From NCBI GenBank assembly GCA_903848955.1, contig CAINHS010000003.1, positions 1 through 64,000 on the forward strand: 64,000 nt of DNA, written 5' to 3'. This document shows positions 42,854 to 58,031 of this stretch, one piece after another. Origin of the DNA: an uncultured beta proteobacterium (GTDB lineage Bacteria; Pseudomonadota; Gammaproteobacteria; Burkholderiales; Rhodocyclaceae). Below the pieces are notes generated by a model that was given only the letters and a program-made list of their open reading frames with translations, was not told where the DNA came from and searched no databases. Made by a program: the position numbers and the translations under genes. Position 1 is the stretch's first letter. Every line of letters begins with the position of its first letter.

Positions 42854-44515
42854 ATGGCACACATATCCGACATGATCAGCGACCACATCGAGGCCTACCT
42901 CAAGTCCCACGAAGGCAAGGGACTCGCGCGCTTCATCACCTGCGGCAGTGCGGACGACGGCAACAGCACCATGATCACCGGCGCCGCCACCGCCGATGTC
43001 GCCGTGGTCATGGTCGATGCGCGCAAGGGCGTGCTGGTGCAGACCCGCCGCCACAGCTACCTGGCCTCCCTGACCGGCATCCGCCACGTCGTCGTCGTCA
43101 TCAGCGAGATGGACCTGGTCGACTGGTCGGAGCAGACCTTCCGCGCCATCGCCGGGGAATACGCCGCTTTCACCCAAACGCTCGGCTTCACCGACATCAC
43201 CTGCATCCCGATGTCGGCGCTCAAGGGCGACAATGTCATCGCCCGCAGCGAGCACATGGACTGGTACCGCGGCACCACCCTGAGGGGCTACCTGGAAGCC
43301 GTGCCGGTCGATGAGAACCGGCTGCAGAACAGTCCCTTCCGCCTGCCGGTGCAGCGGGTCACCCCGGACTGCCGCGGCATCACCGGTACCATCGCCTCCG
43401 GCATCGTCAGCACCGGCGACCGCGTGCGCATCCAGCCCGCCGGGCGGGAGACGCGGGTGGCACGCATCGTCAGCGCCGACGGCGACCTGGAACAGGCCGT
43501 GGCCGGGCAGTCGATCACGCTGACGCTCGCCGACGAGGTGGACATCTCGCCTGGCGACATCATTTCCACCATCGACGCCCCGGCCAGCGTCGCCGACCAG
43601 TTCGAGGCGACCCTGCTGTGGATGGCCGGGGACCCCATGCTGCCCGGCCGCCGCTACCTGCTGAAGATCGGCGGCCAGACGGTGAATGCCGGAATCGGCC
43701 ACCTCAAGTACAAGCTCAACGTCAATACGCTGGAGCACACGGCGGCGACCAAGCTGGAATTGAACGAGATCGGCGTGCTGAACCTGTCCCTCGACCGCCA
43801 GATCGCCTTCGATCCCTACAAGGAGAACCGCGCGACCGGCGGCTTCATCCTCATCGACCGGATCAGCAACACCACCATCGCCGCCGGCATGATCGACTTT
43901 GCCCTGCGCCGCGCCAGCAACATCCACCTGCAGGCGCTGGACATCGACAAGGCGGCGCGCGCCAGGCTGAAGGGGCAGCAGGGCTGCGTGGTCTGGCTCA
44001 CCGGCCTGTCGGGCTCGGGCAAATCCGCCATCGCCAATCAGGTCGAAAAGAAGCTCTACGCCGCCGGCCGCCATACCTACATCCTCGACGGCGACAACGT
44101 GCGTCACGGCCTCAACAAGGACCTCGGTTTCACCGCCGCCGACCGCGTCGAGAACATCCGGCGCATTGCCGAGGTGGCGAAGCTGATGGTCGATTCCGGC
44201 CTGATCGTGATCACCGCCTTCATCTCGCCCTTCCGCGCCGAGCGGCAGATGGCGCGCGACCTGCTGAAGCAGGGCGAGTTCTACGAGGTATTCGTGGACA
44301 CACCGCTGGCGCTGGCCGAGGAGCGCGATCCCAAGGGCCTGTACAAGAAGGCGCGGCGCGGCGAACTGAAGAACTTCACCGGCATCGACTCGCCCTACGA
44401 GGCGCCGGAGAGCCCGGAGATGGTCATCGATACCACCGCGCTTTCCGCCGAGGAGGCCGCCGATGTGATCATCGGCAGGCTGTCCGAAGCCGGCATGACG
44501 GGCGCCGCGGCGTAG
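42854..44515 (+). CDS. CysN-CysC (NodQ-like) sulfate-activation fusion with internally deleted GTPase domain and intact APS-kinase domain
   Basis: [33 protein letters not shown]: segment between the P-loop and the TGA.TAD motif absent; CysC domain [50 protein letters not shown] intact. Confidence 0.9.
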
Positions 44516-51073: not shown

Positions 51074-52177
51074 ATGGCGACGCAAAGCGAACAGCAGATC
51101 CTCGACGGACAGACCTGGGAACAGTTCTGCGATGCGCTCAAGCATGCCGGGCAGCAAGTGCTCCGTGCCGAAGCACCGGCCGACGCCTTCACTCGCGCCG
51201 AGGGCTACCGCTACCTGAGCCGCCTGCTGCGCGTTGCTCTGGAAATGCACGTCGAGTTCGCCGACCCGGACTTTCCCGGCTTCATCATCCCCTCGCACGA
51301 GACGGTCAAGATCGGCGCCGACAATCCGGACAACCTCTACCTCTCGGCGCGCATCGACGGCAAAAACGAGTATCGGGTCAGCGGCACGCGCGGCAGCGTG
51401 GCCGCGCTCAACTTCGCAACAAAAAGCGGCGGCTACGCCAACAAGGACGGACGCATGGACGGCACCGGCTTCATCGACGCCCACGCCATGCAGTTCGCCG
51501 CCGACGGCAGCTTCGAGCTGGTCCTCAGCCAGCAGAGGCAACCCGGCAATTGGCTGCCGATGCAAGCCGACAGCAACCAGTTGCTGGTACGCCAGACCTT
51601 TCTCGACCGCCGACTGGAGAAGCCGGCGCAGATCCGCATCGAGCGCATCGGTGCCGCTGCGCAGCCGGCGCCGCTCGATCCGGCACACTTGCAGGAGCAA
51701 CTGCAGCGCGCCGCCGGCTTCGTCGACAACACGGCGCGCATCTTCGCCGACTGGGCGCAGGGCTACCGGGCGCAACCCAACCGCCTGCCGCCTGCCGACC
51801 AGGCCGTCTGCCAGGCCGCCGGCGGCGATCCGAACATTTTCTACTACCACGGCTACTGGCAACTCGAAGACGACCAGGCCCTGATCATCGACATCGCGCG
51901 CATTCCCGGTTGCGACTTCTGGAACCTGCAGATCAACAATTACTGGATGGAGTCGCTCGACTACCGCTACCACCGCATACACGTCAATAAGCATTCCGCA
52001 ACGGTGAATGCCGACGGCAGTGTCCGCATCGTGCTCGCCCGCAGTGATCCGGGTGTGCCCAACTGGCTGGAAACCGCCGGCCACCGCCTCGGCACCATGT
52101 GCATGCGCTGGATAGGCGCGTCCGAGAAGGTGCACCCGACCACGCGCGTAGTAAAGCTGGCCGATTTGCAGCAATGA
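51074..52177 (+). CDS. DUF1214-type protein
   Basis: NPDNLYLSARIDGKNEYRVSGTRGSVAALNF; DDQALIIDIARIPGCDFWNLQINNYWMESLDYR; resembles 505..1710. Confidence 0.75.
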   Translation: MATQSEQQILDGQTWEQFCDALKHAGQQVLRAEAPADAFTRAEGYRYLSRLLRVALEMHVEFADPDFPGFIIPSHETVKIGADNPDNLYLSARIDGKNEYRVSGTRGSVAALNFATKSGGYANKDGRMDGTGFIDAHAMQFAADGSFELVLSQQRQPGNWLPMQADSNQLLVRQTFLDRRLEKPAQIRIERIGAAAQPAPLDPAHLQEQLQRAAGFVDNTARIFADWAQGYRAQPNRLPPADQAVCQAAGGDPNIFYYHGYWQLEDDQALIIDIARIPGCDFWNLQINNYWMESLDYRYHRIHVNKHSATVNADGSVRIVLARSDPGVPNWLETAGHRLGTMCMRWIGASEKVHPTTRVVKLADLQQ

Positions 52178-52188
52178 CAGGAGGATGC

Positions 52189-53355
52189 ATGGCTTTCGAC
52201 ATCAATACCCTGCTCGCCGAGGCGAGCCGACGCAGCGGCGGCCTTGAGGATTTCGGCGACGAGGCATTCCGCCCCGGCCTTGCCGCCCTGATCGAATCCC
52301 TGAACGGCGAAGCCGGGCTGTCGGACCTGGGCCGGCAACTCCTCGGCGAGCGCATCATCGAACTGCTGAAGAACAGGCTGGTGCTGGAAGACTGGTGCCG
52401 GCGCCGGCCCGAGATACTCGCCGAACCGGTCGACGACCCCATTGTCATCGTCGGCCTGCCACGCACCGGCACCACGCTGCTGCAGCGCATCCTCAGCTGC
52501 GACCCACGTCTCTATCCGATGCGCTGGTGGGAGGCGCGCTTTCCGACACCGGTGCCCGATGCGCCGGCCGCCGGTCCCGATCCGCGCATCGCCGCAGCCA
52601 AAGCCGAGGTCAAGGCCATGCTCGAGGCCAATCCGGCGCTGCTCGCCATCCATCCCTTCGACGCCGAGGCCGCGGATGAGGAGGGCATACTCATGGAGCA
52701 TTCCTTCATGAGCTTCTTCGATGCCTACGCCGACATCCCCGGCTACACGCGCTGGATGTGGCAACACGACCAGACGCCGGCCTACATCCATCTGAAGCGC
52801 ATGCTGAAGTTCATCCAGTGGCAGAAGAAGCAGCGCGGCGAAGTCGCCACGCGCTGGGTGCTGAAAACGCCGCACCACCTGCGCCAGATCGACGTGCTGT
52901 TCGCTGTCTTCCCCGGCGCGCAGGTGATCCAGACCCATCGCGATCCGCTCGAGACCATTCCCTCGATAGGCAGTTTCATCCACAACCTGTGGGCGATATA
53001 TGGCCGGGCCGCCGACCCGGTGCGCGCCGGGCGGCAATGGTCGGACATCTGGAGCCGCGGCATCGCCGCCACCATGGCCTGCCGCGGGCAGACGGCGCCG
53101 GACCGCTTCCTCGACGTCTGGTTCGCCGATACCCTGAGCCGGCCGCTGGAGGTGGTGCGCAGCATCTACGACTTCGTCGGCCTCGGCTTCCCCGCGGGCA
53201 TACAGGAAAGGATGCAGGACTACCTCGAGCACAACGCGCGCGAGAAGCGCCCGCTGCACAGCTACAGCCTGGAACACTACGGCCTGTCGGAGGAAAAACT
53301 CAAGGCCGACTTTGCCGCCTACCGCGCGCGCTACATCCTGCCGCGCCAGCCCTGA
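52189..53355 (+). CDS. PAPS-type sulfotransferase family protein
   Basis: 5' phosphosulfate-binding loop IVIVGLPRTGTTLLQRILSCDP; FPGAQVIQTHRDPLETIPS. Confidence 0.88.
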   Translation: MAFDINTLLAEASRRSGGLEDFGDEAFRPGLAALIESLNGEAGLSDLGRQLLGERIIELLKNRLVLEDWCRRRPEILAEPVDDPIVIVGLPRTGTTLLQRILSCDPRLYPMRWWEARFPTPVPDAPAAGPDPRIAAAKAEVKAMLEANPALLAIHPFDAEAADEEGILMEHSFMSFFDAYADIPGYTRWMWQHDQTPAYIHLKRMLKFIQWQKKQRGEVATRWVLKTPHHLRQIDVLFAVFPGAQVIQTHRDPLETIPSIGSFIHNLWAIYGRAADPVRAGRQWSDIWSRGIAATMACRGQTAPDRFLDVWFADTLSRPLEVVRSIYDFVGLGFPAGIQERMQDYLEHNAREKRPLHSYSLEHYGLSEEKLKADFAAYRARYILPRQP

Positions 53356-53481: not shown

Positions 53482-54108
53482 ATGTCCATAGATATCAAGG
53501 AGACCTTCAAGGTCGCGGCACCCATCGACAAAGTCTGGGAATTTTTTCTTTCCCCGGACAACGTCGTCGCCTGCATGCCGGGTGCATCCCTGACGGAAAT
53601 CGTCGATGCCCGGCGCTTCATCGGCGCGGTGAAGATCAAGATCGGCGCGGTCAGCGCCCAGTACCAGGGCACGATCACCTACCAGGCGCTGGACAAGGAC
53701 ACCTACACCATGCAGATGCTGGCCGAGGGCAGCGAACGTGGCGGCGGCACCGTCAGCGGCACCATCGCCACGCAACTGGTTGCGCTGCCTGACGGCAGCG
53801 GCACCGAGGTTCGCGTCAACTCCAGCGTCGACCTTACCGGCCGCATCGTGCAGGTCGGCCGCGGCATGATCGAAGGCGTCTCGGCACAGATCATCAAGAA
53901 GTACGTCACCAACCTCCGGGCGCGGCTCGAAGTGCCCGCCGGGCAGGCGCCGGAGTCCGCCGCCGCGACCGCAGACGGGGTTGCGCCGGCTCCTGCCGCA
54001 GCCCCGGTGCTGCCGCCCAAGGAAGACTCAATCAACATCGTCGCCGTGGTTTTCACGGTGTTCTGGAACGGCCTGCGGAATTTCTTCAGGCGCCTGTTCG
54101 GCGGCTGA
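53482..54108 (+). CDS. CoxG-like SRPBCC-fold protein with C-terminal hydrophobic tail
   Basis: IKETFKVAAPIDKVWEFFLSPDNVVACMPGASLTEIVD; located before Mo-hydroxylase subunits. Confidence 0.9.
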   Translation: MSIDIKETFKVAAPIDKVWEFFLSPDNVVACMPGASLTEIVDARRFIGAVKIKIGAVSAQYQGTITYQALDKDTYTMQMLAEGSERGGGTVSGTIATQLVALPDGSGTEVRVNSSVDLTGRIVQVGRGMIEGVSAQIIKKYVTNLRARLEVPAGQAPESAAATADGVAPAPAAAPVLPPKEDSINIVAVVFTVFWNGLRNFFRRLFGG

Positions 54109-54121
54109 ACTGCGACGGGCG

Positions 54122-54139
54122 TTAGTCCGTTTGGACGTT
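54122..54139 (+). promoter_or_regulatory. palindromic operator-like element, site A
   Basis: ttagtccgtttggacgtt, 92 nt upstream of the FAD-subunit start at 54232. Confidence 0.65.
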
Positions 54140-54231
54140 GATCGGGTGGCGAGCCCGATGTGAAATCGCAGTTAGAATTCAGGGCGAATTCTGCCCATCT
54201 CCTTTTGACGCTGACCGACAGTGAATTCACC

Positions 54232-55107
54232 ATGAAGCCGGCACCCTTTGACTACCTCACCCCGCAAACGCTAGGCGAGGCCGTGGCACTGCTCGAGCGC
54301 TTCGACAACGAAGGCGAGGACGCCAAGATCATCGCCGGCGGCCAGAGCCTGATGCCGATGCTGGCCATGCGCATTGCCCGGCCGAAGGTGCTGATCGACC
54401 TGCGCCGCATCGCCGGCCTCGACTACATCCGCGAAGAAGCAGGCGTCATAGCCATCGGCGCCATGGCCAGCAAACGCAGCGCCGAGGAGTCGGACCTGAT
54501 CCGCAACAGCCAGCCGCTGTTTCATGCCGCCACCAGCCTGGTCGGCCATCGCCAGATCCGCAACCGCGGCTCTGTCGGCGGTTCCTTCGCCCATTCCGAT
54601 CCGGCCTCCGAATACCCGGCCGTGGCCCTGGTGCTGGACATGCAGATGAAAGCCGTCGGACCCGGCGGCGAGCGACTGATCCCGGCCGACGAGTTCTTCG
54701 TCACCTACATGACCACCAGCCTGGAAGCCAGCGAAATCCTCACCGAGGTGCGCATGCCGGTGCTGCCGGCGGGAACCGGCTGGGCGATTCAGGAATTCGC
54801 GCGGCGCAACGGCGATCTGGCGCTGGCCGGCGTCGCCCTCAGCCTGCGTATCGAAGGCGGCGTCTGCCGCCAGGTGCGCATGGCGGCTTTCGGCGTCAAC
54901 CCCACTGCCGTGCGCTTGCCTGCCGGCGAAGCCGCCCTCGAGGGCCAGGCGCCTGACGCCGCGGCCTTTGCCCGCGCCGCAGCGGCGGCAGCCGCAGCGC
55001 TGGAAGAACCCATGTCCTGCATCCATGCCCCGGGCGAGTACCGCCGCCATCTGGTGAAAACACTGGCCGAGCGCTGTCTCGTCGAAGCCGCGGGCCGCGC
55101 CCGTTAG
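54232..55107 (+). CDS. xanthine-oxidase-family hydroxylase, FAD subunit (CoxM-like)
   Basis: IIAGGQSLMPMLAMRIARPKVLIDLRRIAGL; IRNRGSVGGSFAHSDPASEYPAV. Confidence 0.93.
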   Translation: MKPAPFDYLTPQTLGEAVALLERFDNEGEDAKIIAGGQSLMPMLAMRIARPKVLIDLRRIAGLDYIREEAGVIAIGAMASKRSAEESDLIRNSQPLFHAATSLVGHRQIRNRGSVGGSFAHSDPASEYPAVALVLDMQMKAVGPGGERLIPADEFFVTYMTTSLEASEILTEVRMPVLPAGTGWAIQEFARRNGDLALAGVALSLRIEGGVCRQVRMAAFGVNPTAVRLPAGEAALEGQAPDAAAFARAAAAAAAALEEPMSCIHAPGEYRRHLVKTLAERCLVEAAGRAR

Positions 55108-55117
55108 GAAATTGAGC

Positions 55118-55606
55118 ATGACGACCAAGCAACGCATCAACCTCCACGTTAACGGCAAGGCCTATGAGCGCGACGTCGAGCCGCGCCTGACCCTGGCCGA
55201 TTTTCTGCGCCACGAACTGCACCTCGGCGGCACCCATGTCGGCTGCGAACACGGCATTTGCGGCGTCTGCACGGTATTGATCGACGGCCGCTCGGCACGC
55301 TCCTGCCTGACCCTGGCAGTACAAGTCGACGGCGCCCAGGTGACGACGGTGGAAGGCTTGCGCAATCGCCAGACCGGTCAGCTGCATCCGATCCAGCAGG
55401 CCTTCGTAGACGCCCACGGGCTGCAATGCGGCTTCTGCACGCCGGGCTTCCTGATGACCACGCTGGAACTGCTCGGCGAGAATCCGGATCCCTCGACAGA
55501 GGAGATCAAGGAAGCCCTGGGCGGCAACCTCTGCCGCTGCACCGGCTACGAGAGCATCCTCGCCTCGGTGCGCCTGGCAGCCGAGCGCATGCGCGCCGGC
55601 GGCTGA
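55118..55606 (+). CDS. xanthine-oxidase-family hydroxylase, 2x[2Fe-2S] subunit (CoxS-like)
   Basis: GCEHGICGVCTVLIDG; CGFCTPGFLM; GNLCRCTGY. Confidence 0.95.
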   Translation: MTTKQRINLHVNGKAYERDVEPRLTLADFLRHELHLGGTHVGCEHGICGVCTVLIDGRSARSCLTLAVQVDGAQVTTVEGLRNRQTGQLHPIQQAFVDAHGLQCGFCTPGFLMTTLELLGENPDPSTEEIKEALGGNLCRCTGYESILASVRLAAERMRAGG

Positions 55607-55622
55607 TCAACAAGGGCATATC

Positions 55623-58031
55623 ATGGCTATCGAGATTCCCAAGCTACCGGAACACATGCACAGCGGCGCCACCCGCTTCATCGGCAGGGACGTCAAGCGC
55701 GTCGAGGATCCGGCCCTGGTGTCGGGTACGGTGGAGTTCATCGACAACCTGGACATCCCGGGCATGCTGCATTGTGCGATCCTGCGCAGCCCGCATCCGC
55801 ACGCCCGCGTGCTCAAGGTCGATACCAGTGCAGCGGAAGCGCTTGAAGGCGTGGCCGCAGTGCTCACCGGCGAGGACGCCAGGCGCTGGAGCAATCCCGC
55901 CTACACCGCGCCCGAGGGCTGGGGCGCCTACTGCGTGGCCGTCGACAAGGTGCGCTTCGTCGGCGAACCGGTAGCGGCGGTGGCGGCGGAAAACCGCTAT
56001 ATCGCCGAAGACGCACTCGAACTGATCCGCGTCGAATACGAACTGCTGCCGCCGCTGGCGACCCCGCAAGCGGCCATGGCGCCGGGCGCGCCCGTACTTT
56101 TCGAAGCACACGACAGCAACGTGGTGCAAAGCCGCGTCTACAACTGGGGCGAAGTGGATCGCCTCTTCGCCGAGGCCGACCATGTGGTCAGCAACAGCTT
56201 CCGCTGGAACCGGGTCGGTGCCAATCCGACCGAGACTTTCGGCTGCATCTGCCAGTGGGACCTCGCCGAAAACAGCCTGACGGTCCACGGCGCCTACCAG
56301 ACGCCGCGCTTCTGGGTGGCCGCCCGCGCCATGGCGCTCAATCTGCCCAGCAACAAGGTGCGCATCGTCAGCCATCCCATGGGCGGCTCCTTCGGCGGCA
56401 AGGGCGGCCCGCGCGGCACCGACATCTCGGCCCTGCTCTCGCGCAAGAGCGAAGGCCGGCCGGTGAAGTACATCGAAGACCGCATGGAATACCTGATCGC
56501 CGGCTTCAGCCAGTCCTGGGACCGTCACTACGAGGCCTCCCTGGCGGTGAAAGCCGACGGCACCGTGACCGGCTTCAAGGTCAGGCTCATCGATGATCAG
56601 GGCGCCGGCACCGAGGGCTGGGGCACCATATCGGTAGCCAAGCCGCTGGCGGCCTTCACCGGTCCCTACCGCATCGAAGCGGCGCGCTATGACACCGTTC
56701 TGGTCGCCACCAACCGCGCGCCGAGCGGCGCTTACCGCGGCTACGGTCCACCACCGCATTTCCTCGTGCTCGAGTCGCTGATGGACATGACGGCGCGCAA
56801 GCTGGCGATCGACCCCGCCGAGTTGCGGCGGCGCAACTACCTGCGCCCCGAGCAGTTCCCCTACACGACGCCCGCCGGCAACGAATACGACAGCGGCAAC
56901 TATGAAGCGGTGCTCGACAAGCTGCTGGCCATGGCCGACTACCGCGGTCTGCGCGAGGAGCAAAGCCGCGCCCGCGCCGCAGGCCGCCTGATCGGCATCG
57001 GCGTCGCCAGCACGGTCGAGCCGGGCGTGTTTGACTGGAACGCCTACGCCACCGTCGGCGTACCGGGGATAGGCGTGCCCGAGGGCGTCAAGCTGGCCTT
57101 CGATGTCTTCGGCAATCTCACCGTCGTGGTCGGCTTCACCCTGCAGGGCCAGGGCCAATACACCGTCGCCGCCCAGATCGCCGCCGACTACTGGGGCATG
57201 GACTTCAATGCCGTGAAGGTGACGACGGCGGCGACCGATGTGACCCCGCCGCACTTCGGCCCGGGCGGCAGCCGTCTCGGCGTAGCCATTGCCGGCGCCG
57301 TGCTCGGCGCCAGCCAGAAACTCGAAGACTTGTTCTGCTGCGTCGTCGCCCATGTCATGCAGACCCAACCCGACCAGGTCGAATTGATGGACGGCCGGCT
57401 GCGCCTGAAACAGAATCCGGCGGTAGGCATGAGCGTCGCCGAGGTCGCCGGCCTGATGCTGTCGCGTGCCGACCTGCTGCCGCCGGGCGTCGAACCCTGC
57501 CCCGAGGCCACTTATGTGTGGACCGCACCGAATCGCACCATGCCCGACGAGGAAGGCCGCTGCCGTTCCTACCTGACGGCGGCCAACGCCACGCACCTGG
57601 TGATGCTGGAGATCGACCGCGAAACCGGGCGCACCGACATCCTCAAGTACTTCATCGTCGACGACTGCGGCACCCGCCTCAATCCGGGCAACCTGGAAGG
57701 CCAGTTGCAAGGCGCCCTGGCCCAGGGCGTGGGCGCAGCCCTGTATGAAGAATACGTCTACAGCGATGACGCGCAACCGCTGGTCACGACGTACGTCGAC
57801 TACCTGATTCCGACGATCCACGAGATCCCCATGGCGAAGAAGGATTTCGTCGTCACGCCCTCGCCCTTCACGCCGTTGGGCGCCAAGGGCTGCGGCGAAG
57901 GAGCGATGCACACCACGCCGGCGGTGATCCACTGCGCGGTCAACGATGCCCTCGCACCCCTCGGGCTGGAGATTCGCGAGACGCCGGCTTCACCGCGGCG
58001 CCTGTGGCAATTGCTGCACCAGGCAAAATAG
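55623..58031 (+). CDS. xanthine-oxidase-family hydroxylase, molybdopterin large subunit
   Basis: GGSFGGKGG; SGAYRGYGPPPHF; LGAKGCGEGAMHTTPAVIHCAVNDAL with the active-site Glu motif. Confidence 0.93.
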   Translation: MAIEIPKLPEHMHSGATRFIGRDVKRVEDPALVSGTVEFIDNLDIPGMLHCAILRSPHPHARVLKVDTSAAEALEGVAAVLTGEDARRWSNPAYTAPEGWGAYCVAVDKVRFVGEPVAAVAAENRYIAEDALELIRVEYELLPPLATPQAAMAPGAPVLFEAHDSNVVQSRVYNWGEVDRLFAEADHVVSNSFRWNRVGANPTETFGCICQWDLAENSLTVHGAYQTPRFWVAARAMALNLPSNKVRIVSHPMGGSFGGKGGPRGTDISALLSRKSEGRPVKYIEDRMEYLIAGFSQSWDRHYEASLAVKADGTVTGFKVRLIDDQGAGTEGWGTISVAKPLAAFTGPYRIEAARYDTVLVATNRAPSGAYRGYGPPPHFLVLESLMDMTARKLAIDPAELRRRNYLRPEQFPYTTPAGNEYDSGNYEAVLDKLLAMADYRGLREEQSRARAAGRLIGIGVASTVEPGVFDWNAYATVGVPGIGVPEGVKLAFDVFGNLTVVVGFTLQGQGQYTVAAQIAADYWGMDFNAVKVTTAATDVTPPHFGPGGSRLGVAIAGAVLGASQKLEDLFCCVVAHVMQTQPDQVELMDGRLRLKQNPAVGMSVAEVAGLMLSRADLLPPGVEPCPEATYVWTAPNRTMPDEEGRCRSYLTAANATHLVMLEIDRETGRTDILKYFIVDDCGTRLNPGNLEGQLQGALAQGVGAALYEEYVYSDDAQPLVTTYVDYLIPTIHEIPMAKKDFVVTPSPFTPLGAKGCGEGAMHTTPAVIHCAVNDALAPLGLEIRETPASPRRLWQLLHQAK

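Follow-up and report, generated by a model that had tools for sequence, protein, structure and literature searches.

What does a CysN-CysC enzyme do once its GTPase part is broken and no CysD is encoded beside it? Enzymes of this type consist of two parts that normally carry out two steps toward activated sulfate, with CysD as the partner in the first step. The question is raised by a gene in a stretch of 64,000 nucleotides (here called the window) at the start of contig CAINHS010000003.1 from an uncultured beta proteobacterium of the Rhodocyclaceae (assembly GCA_903848955.1).

Lesions and constraint in the fusion protein

The open reading frame (Table 1) starts with the usual NodQ/CysNC N-terminus and runs through a complete APS kinase to its stop at 44515, and both frame and motifs read as the initial annotation had described them. 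The product matches the NCBIfam model of bifunctional CysN/CysC (NF004035) with 775.6 bits against a cut-off of 715, the best stretch beginning at residue 40, which corresponds to profile position 121, and Pfam recognizes only the second half of GTP_EFTU, followed by GTP_EFTU_D2, the eEF1A C-terminal domain, and APS_kinase. That the protein shares its ancestry with CysNC fusions is indicated by 79% identity to the closest relative, a full-length protein of Sterolibacterium sp. STA_77 (L036; sequence identical to G208), and by a position nested among CysNC proteins in the tree. PADLOC gave no match.

Table 1. Positions in the window of the cysNC gene, its lesions and domains, and a nearby sulfotransferase gene
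Feature	Position	Strand	Remark
CysN-CysC (NodQ-type) fusion, G domain excised, predicted GTPase-dead	42854..44515	+	553 aa
P-loop remnant GSADDGNST (canonical GSVDDGKST; Lys to Asn)	42944..42970	+	AlphaFold2 pLDDT <50 for residues 32-44
Deletion junction ACC/ATGATC	42968..42976	+	81 codons (Switch I/G2, DTPGH/G3) absent in frame
Degenerate G4 ISEMD (canonical INKMD)	43100..43114	+	sequence comparison
Barrel 2 loop, three codons missing, conserved NRPxxDFRG lost	43349..43387	+	alignment
Barrel 3 (eEF1A-C-like), conserved	43589..43903	+	0/15 conserved sites changed
APS kinase (CysC) domain	43916..44512	+	0/58 conserved sites changed
Kinase P-loop GLSGSGKS	44003-44026	+	within APS kinase domain
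Further 10-residue kinase motif	44087-44116	+	within APS kinase domain
Sulfotransferase (PF13469, E=9e-40), possible PAPS consumer	52099..53355	+	coding start probably near 52189

The CysN half carries several lesions: (i) GSADDGNST, in which Lys37 of the P-loop (GxxxxGK[ST] in CysN/NodQ GTPases) is replaced by Asn, joins MITGAATAD directly, with ISEMDLVD further on; (ii) exactly 81 codons (243 bp, in frame) are absent between P-loop Thr39 and Met40 in comparison with the closest full-length relative, and with them the Switch I Thr and DxPGH (G2 and G3), in agreement with the approximately 80 residues first estimated; (iii) N84-K85 of NKMD are replaced by S-E, leaving SEMD in place of the NKxD of G4; and (iv) three codons have gone in frame from the otherwise highly conserved VNRPNLDFRG loop of barrel 2, so that the initial statement that both CysN beta-barrels are kept is true of the reading frame but does not apply to the conserved motif of barrel 2. 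The STA_77 gene has GCACCATGGTC at the left breakpoint and GCAACATGGTG at the right one; slippage between these short direct repeats would yield the in-frame junction seen and is probably the mechanism.

The STA_77 protein is damaged as well, since its G domain reads GSAGDGKST (G1 altered) and DTPGREQ (the His of the catalytic position replaced by Arg). In the tree, it and the window protein are sisters (100/98); L071, the sister to both, is intact. The STA_77 contig carries a redundant set of enzymes for sulfate activation in a single run (L036:2181-7917): cysD, a stand-alone cysC, sat, a TauE-type permease gene, and cysNC in its partly degraded state. The search of related genomes that the initial annotation proposed gave a twofold answer: the identical deletion was found neither in 31 genomes of the genus, 399 of the family, and 33 genome-contig loci nor among the plasmid matches listed, so that a single assembly is the basis for it in this species, and yet the same class of damage recurs elsewhere.

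Changes at conserved sites are confined to one side of the protein, affecting 10 of 56 sites in the remaining G domain and barrel 2 versus none of 73 in barrel 3 and the kinase (P = 0.00014), and the APS kinase retains each of its 58 strongly conserved positions. The kinase scores 266 to 269 bits against TIGR00455 (cut-off, 138.7), has its P-loop, DGDN, and FISP motifs, and is predicted to phosphorylate APS to PAPS at the expense of ATP. Estimated by NG86 on short segments, and for the kinase mainly against one close relative (STA_77), dN/dS was 0.12 in barrel 3, 0.21 in the kinase, 0.28 in both G remnants, and 0.43 in barrel 2. Constraint on the CysN half is visibly relaxed.

Whether the core of the G domain still folds, as had been asked at the outset, can be answered in part from an AlphaFold2 run on 31 sequences. 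For the window protein (mean pLDDT, 78.9), pLDDT is approximately 80 to 96 over the greater part of what is left of the G domain's second half, and confidence is also good for both barrels and for the kinase over most of its length; values below 50 are found at the junction and in the P-loop remnant, and the relative placement of the domains is uncertain (pTM, 0.54). The nearest solved structure is CysN of 1zun (TM score of 0.49 on the query). In the model, a partial fold thus survives, and the nucleotide site does not.

Sulfate activation in the host genome

The host genome (3.62 Mb in 151 contigs, 99.97% complete) contains no APS kinase that we could find other than the window CysNC. Its single CysD is encoded on another contig, C144, next to its own intact cysN (GSVDDGKST, DAPGHEQ, NKMDLVD), which bears out the initial remark that no cysD adjoins the window gene and supplies the intact pair whose presence elsewhere in the genome was to be checked. 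CysH, in the same run on C144, has the CC...CxxC cysteines of APS reductases and scores above the APS_reductase cut-off and below that of the PAPS-reductase equivalog TIGR02057, while the broader model PRK02090 names it phosphoadenylyl-sulfate reductase. Sat is encoded together with aprB and aprA on contig C42. With CysDN on C144 and Sat on C42, APS would be available from two sources, and since CysH is of the APS type, PAPS is probably needed only for sulfotransfer and not for cysteine. On C42 (L103:613-4424), sat-aprB-aprA is followed by quinone/heterodisulfide-reductase-like genes, and the gene content suggests a dissimilatory sulfur metabolism in the host organism.

A possible consumer of PAPS lies in the window itself. 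The sulfotransferase that the initial annotation had suggested as the enzyme served by the kinase is indeed a member of its family (Table 1), but it is located approximately 8 kb from cysNC, with genes on the opposite strand between them, so that its link to the kinase is suggested by its presence and not by operon structure. Inspection by eye showed a CoxG/CoxM/CoxS/CoxL-like molybdenum hydroxylase set after the sulfotransferase gene (53482-58031) and, in the remaining window, many genes for SDRs, acyl-CoA dehydrogenases, and thiolases, as in a lipid or steroid-like catabolic region.

Recurrence of the damage and absence of CysD

CysNC loci were gathered from the genus, family, order, and class of the organism and from a genome-contig collection; 145 distinct proteins were aligned, and their state was scored residue by residue at nine G-domain and eight kinase positions, with the variants AITID and SITID counted as intact. 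The G domain was intact in 130 proteins, 129 of them with CysD in the neighborhood and one at a locus truncated by the end of its contig. In the other 15, the G domain is broken and the kinase kept, a number to be read in light of the preference given to low-identity loci in sampling, which enriches broken G domains but not CysD absence. These are the window protein, the STA_77 protein, those of G036, G050, G051, G138, G430, G486, G527, G633, G643, G679, G700, and G778, and a contig-edge fragment from G021, which is weak evidence, as its N-terminus is simply missing at the contig edge. One broken protein (L111) differs at a single kinase position that is also variable in many intact proteins.

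The state of the G domain is tied to the presence of CysD. No cysD was found nearby at 12 of 14 assessable loci with a broken G domain versus none of 129 with an intact one (Fisher's exact test, P = 1e-15, uncorrected for kinship). The two exceptions are STA_77, in which cysD is set apart from cysNC by cysC, sat, and a permease gene, and G036, in which CysD is itself degraded (33 to 39% identity, with SGGKDS reading SAGKES). In G036 (L095:4245-7534), this CysD, with a long N-terminal extension, directly precedes the degraded-G CysNC, and the two seem to have decayed together. In a tree built from barrel 3 and the kinase (104 rows), the broken state requires nine changes, eight of them forced by well-supported branches, and the G domain goes along with CysD in each of the seven phylogenetically independent pairs whose members differ in CysD (P = 0.016). 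The window protein, with broken G motifs, intact kinase motifs, and no cysD nearby, belongs to a class whose damage is seen in eight other lineages, including the single-contig assemblies G051 and G138; the lesions vary by lineage, from excisions of different extent to substitutions only. What the initial annotation had expected to be a one-off is thus a recurrent pattern tied to the loss of CysD.

Two further candidates were rejected. An adjoining cysQ is no hallmark of the dead form, as it is equally common beside intact cysNC (38 of 113 loci) and thus marks PAPS metabolism rather than decay. An apparent CysD-CysN-CysC triple fusion, seen as two long open frames, was discarded because CysD is read in a different frame and the early start is not genuine.

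One family (f15; G050, G643, G700, and G778) consists of proteins of 518 to 536 aa that have lost the G3 region and most of barrel 2, with a conserved kinase. Between species, dN/dS was 0.06 to 0.13 in the kinase and approximately 0.5 in the initial portion of the remaining G domain, showing that a fusion can keep a shortened G domain through several species and genera while selection continues to act on its kinase. The gene always adjoins an asparagine-synthase-like gene (L105-L107 and L097), in a conserved neighborhood that also includes a response regulator and long membrane proteins, VanZ-like or other.

Another ATP sulfurylase was present in each of 15 genomes examined, among them STA_77 and G672 (in which the f15-type gene is found as a fragment only), with CysD in ten and Sat in eleven. 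Five of them (G050, G643, G672, G700, and G633) lack CysD genome-wide, and the CysN half there cannot act in CysDN. In several genomes (e.g., G138, G430, and G633), no APS kinase other than the dead-G CysNC exceeds the cut-off. Several of the genes adjoin cysQ and sit among polysaccharide genes, and in G430 the gene shares its strand with tauE, cysQ, and an adjoining TPR-sulfotransferase gene. Mirror cases also occur, since L094, L116, L117, L118, and L150 combine intact CysD and CysN with changes at 21 to 32 conserved kinase sites; either half of the CysNC fusion can decay.

Interpretation and comparison with known systems

These observations are best explained if the 553-aa protein is, as we think likely, a PAPS-making APS kinase with the relic of a CysN GTPase still attached, a prediction that agrees with the initial suggestion of a protein that is now just a PAPS-making kinase and is supported by the dead GTPase motifs, the conserved kinase, and the lack of a cysD partner. 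The ancestor would have been an ordinary CysN-CysC subunit working with CysD. With CysD no longer encoded alongside, and APS supplied by intact CysDN and Sat, selection on GTP binding would have lapsed; point lesions would have accumulated, and an 81-codon slice of the G domain would have been lost in frame, probably between short direct repeats, while selection on the C-terminal kinase and adjoining barrel 3 went on. The present protein would bind ATP and APS and make PAPS for sulfotransferases, without GTPase or CysD-activating activity. The CysN half is not required for this in principle, given that the isolated CysC domain of Mycobacterium tuberculosis CysNC is an active dimeric APS kinase (PMC4373884).

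Three alternatives to a kinase on a relic were weighed: (i) the CysN half may have been repurposed as a pseudo-GTPase that, without GTP turnover, tethers the kinase to Sat or CysDN or controls it. We regard this as unlikely, even though every dead-G case keeps the frame when an internal start or a stop would release the kinase, none has lost barrel 3, most of the second G-domain half and the barrels are well predicted, and dN/dS in the f15 remnant is nearer 0.5 than 1, because a folding constraint on an N-terminal fusion accounts for dN/dS below 1, many conserved CysN sites are lost (10 of 56 here), the lesions differ between lineages, f15 has also lost most of barrel 2, and five genomes with a CysNC of this class have no CysD to dock. 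The broader version, in which the CysN half has been selected repeatedly for placing or regulating the APS kinase (by channeling APS from Sat or CysDN to PAPS synthesis, for instance), is similarly doubtful; if true, it would make the CysD-less CysNC a distinct class of PAPS synthase; (ii) the whole gene, kinase included, may be a pseudogene on its way out, in keeping with the loss of motifs from several domains and the lack of an adjoining operon partner, but this is very improbable for an open frame free of stops that encodes the sole APS kinase of the genome, with low dN/dS in kinase and barrel 3 and a counterpart, f15, conserved across species; (iii) an artefact of assembly or sequencing that hides an intact G domain is the least credible, as already argued initially, for although the genome is a draft and the deletion is seen in this assembly only, independent in-frame lesions lie off the junction and in the CysN half only, no kinase site has changed, the sister gene is already damaged in G1 and G3, and other lineages, single-contig assemblies included, show the same class of damage.

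If the protein is a kinase on a GTPase relic, the name of its NCBI family model (bifunctional sulfate adenylyltransferase subunit 1/APS kinase) predicts a GTP-driven APS synthesis that should be impossible, and a simple rule would follow: where cysNC has no adjoining cysD, a dead GTPase and a working kinase are to be expected. The pattern points to genomes whose PAPS probably goes into sulfation rather than cysteine. Some nine independent decays of one half also amount to a natural experiment on why the halves of a fusion enzyme stay together, to which the mirror cases add decay of the kinase half beside intact CysDN. In the open-access literature searched, we found no report of a GTPase-dead, kinase-live CysNC tied to CysD loss and nothing on point for a pseudo-GTPase CysN or a CysD-less CysNC, and the recurrent form is apparently undescribed there.

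The window protein shares with NodQ/CysNC (NF004035, PRK05506; partner NodP/CysD) the fusion order of G domain, barrel 2, barrel 3, and kinase, and with intact members the same N-terminus and approximately 65 to 71% identity; it differs in the absence of G2, G3, a working G1 and G4, and a CysD partner, so that only the kinase step can remain. Like stand-alone CysC (TIGR00455), it has a kinase above the cut-off, all catalytic motifs, and the same predicted reaction, but a CysN relic of 350 residues forms its N-terminus, and the tree places it inside the fusion family. The M. tuberculosis kinase domain (PDB 4bzp, 4bzq, and 4rfv) was shown to be active and dimeric without the GTPase half; that fragment is artificial, whereas the natural protein works in a CysD-CysN complex with GTPase activity. 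Fungal ATP sulfurylase, which carries a regulatory, noncatalytic APS-kinase-like domain (PMC2275785), also represents a sulfate-activation fusion in which one half lost catalysis and the other kept it; there the dead half is kinase-like and regulatory, whereas here it is the GTPase of the sulfurylase side.
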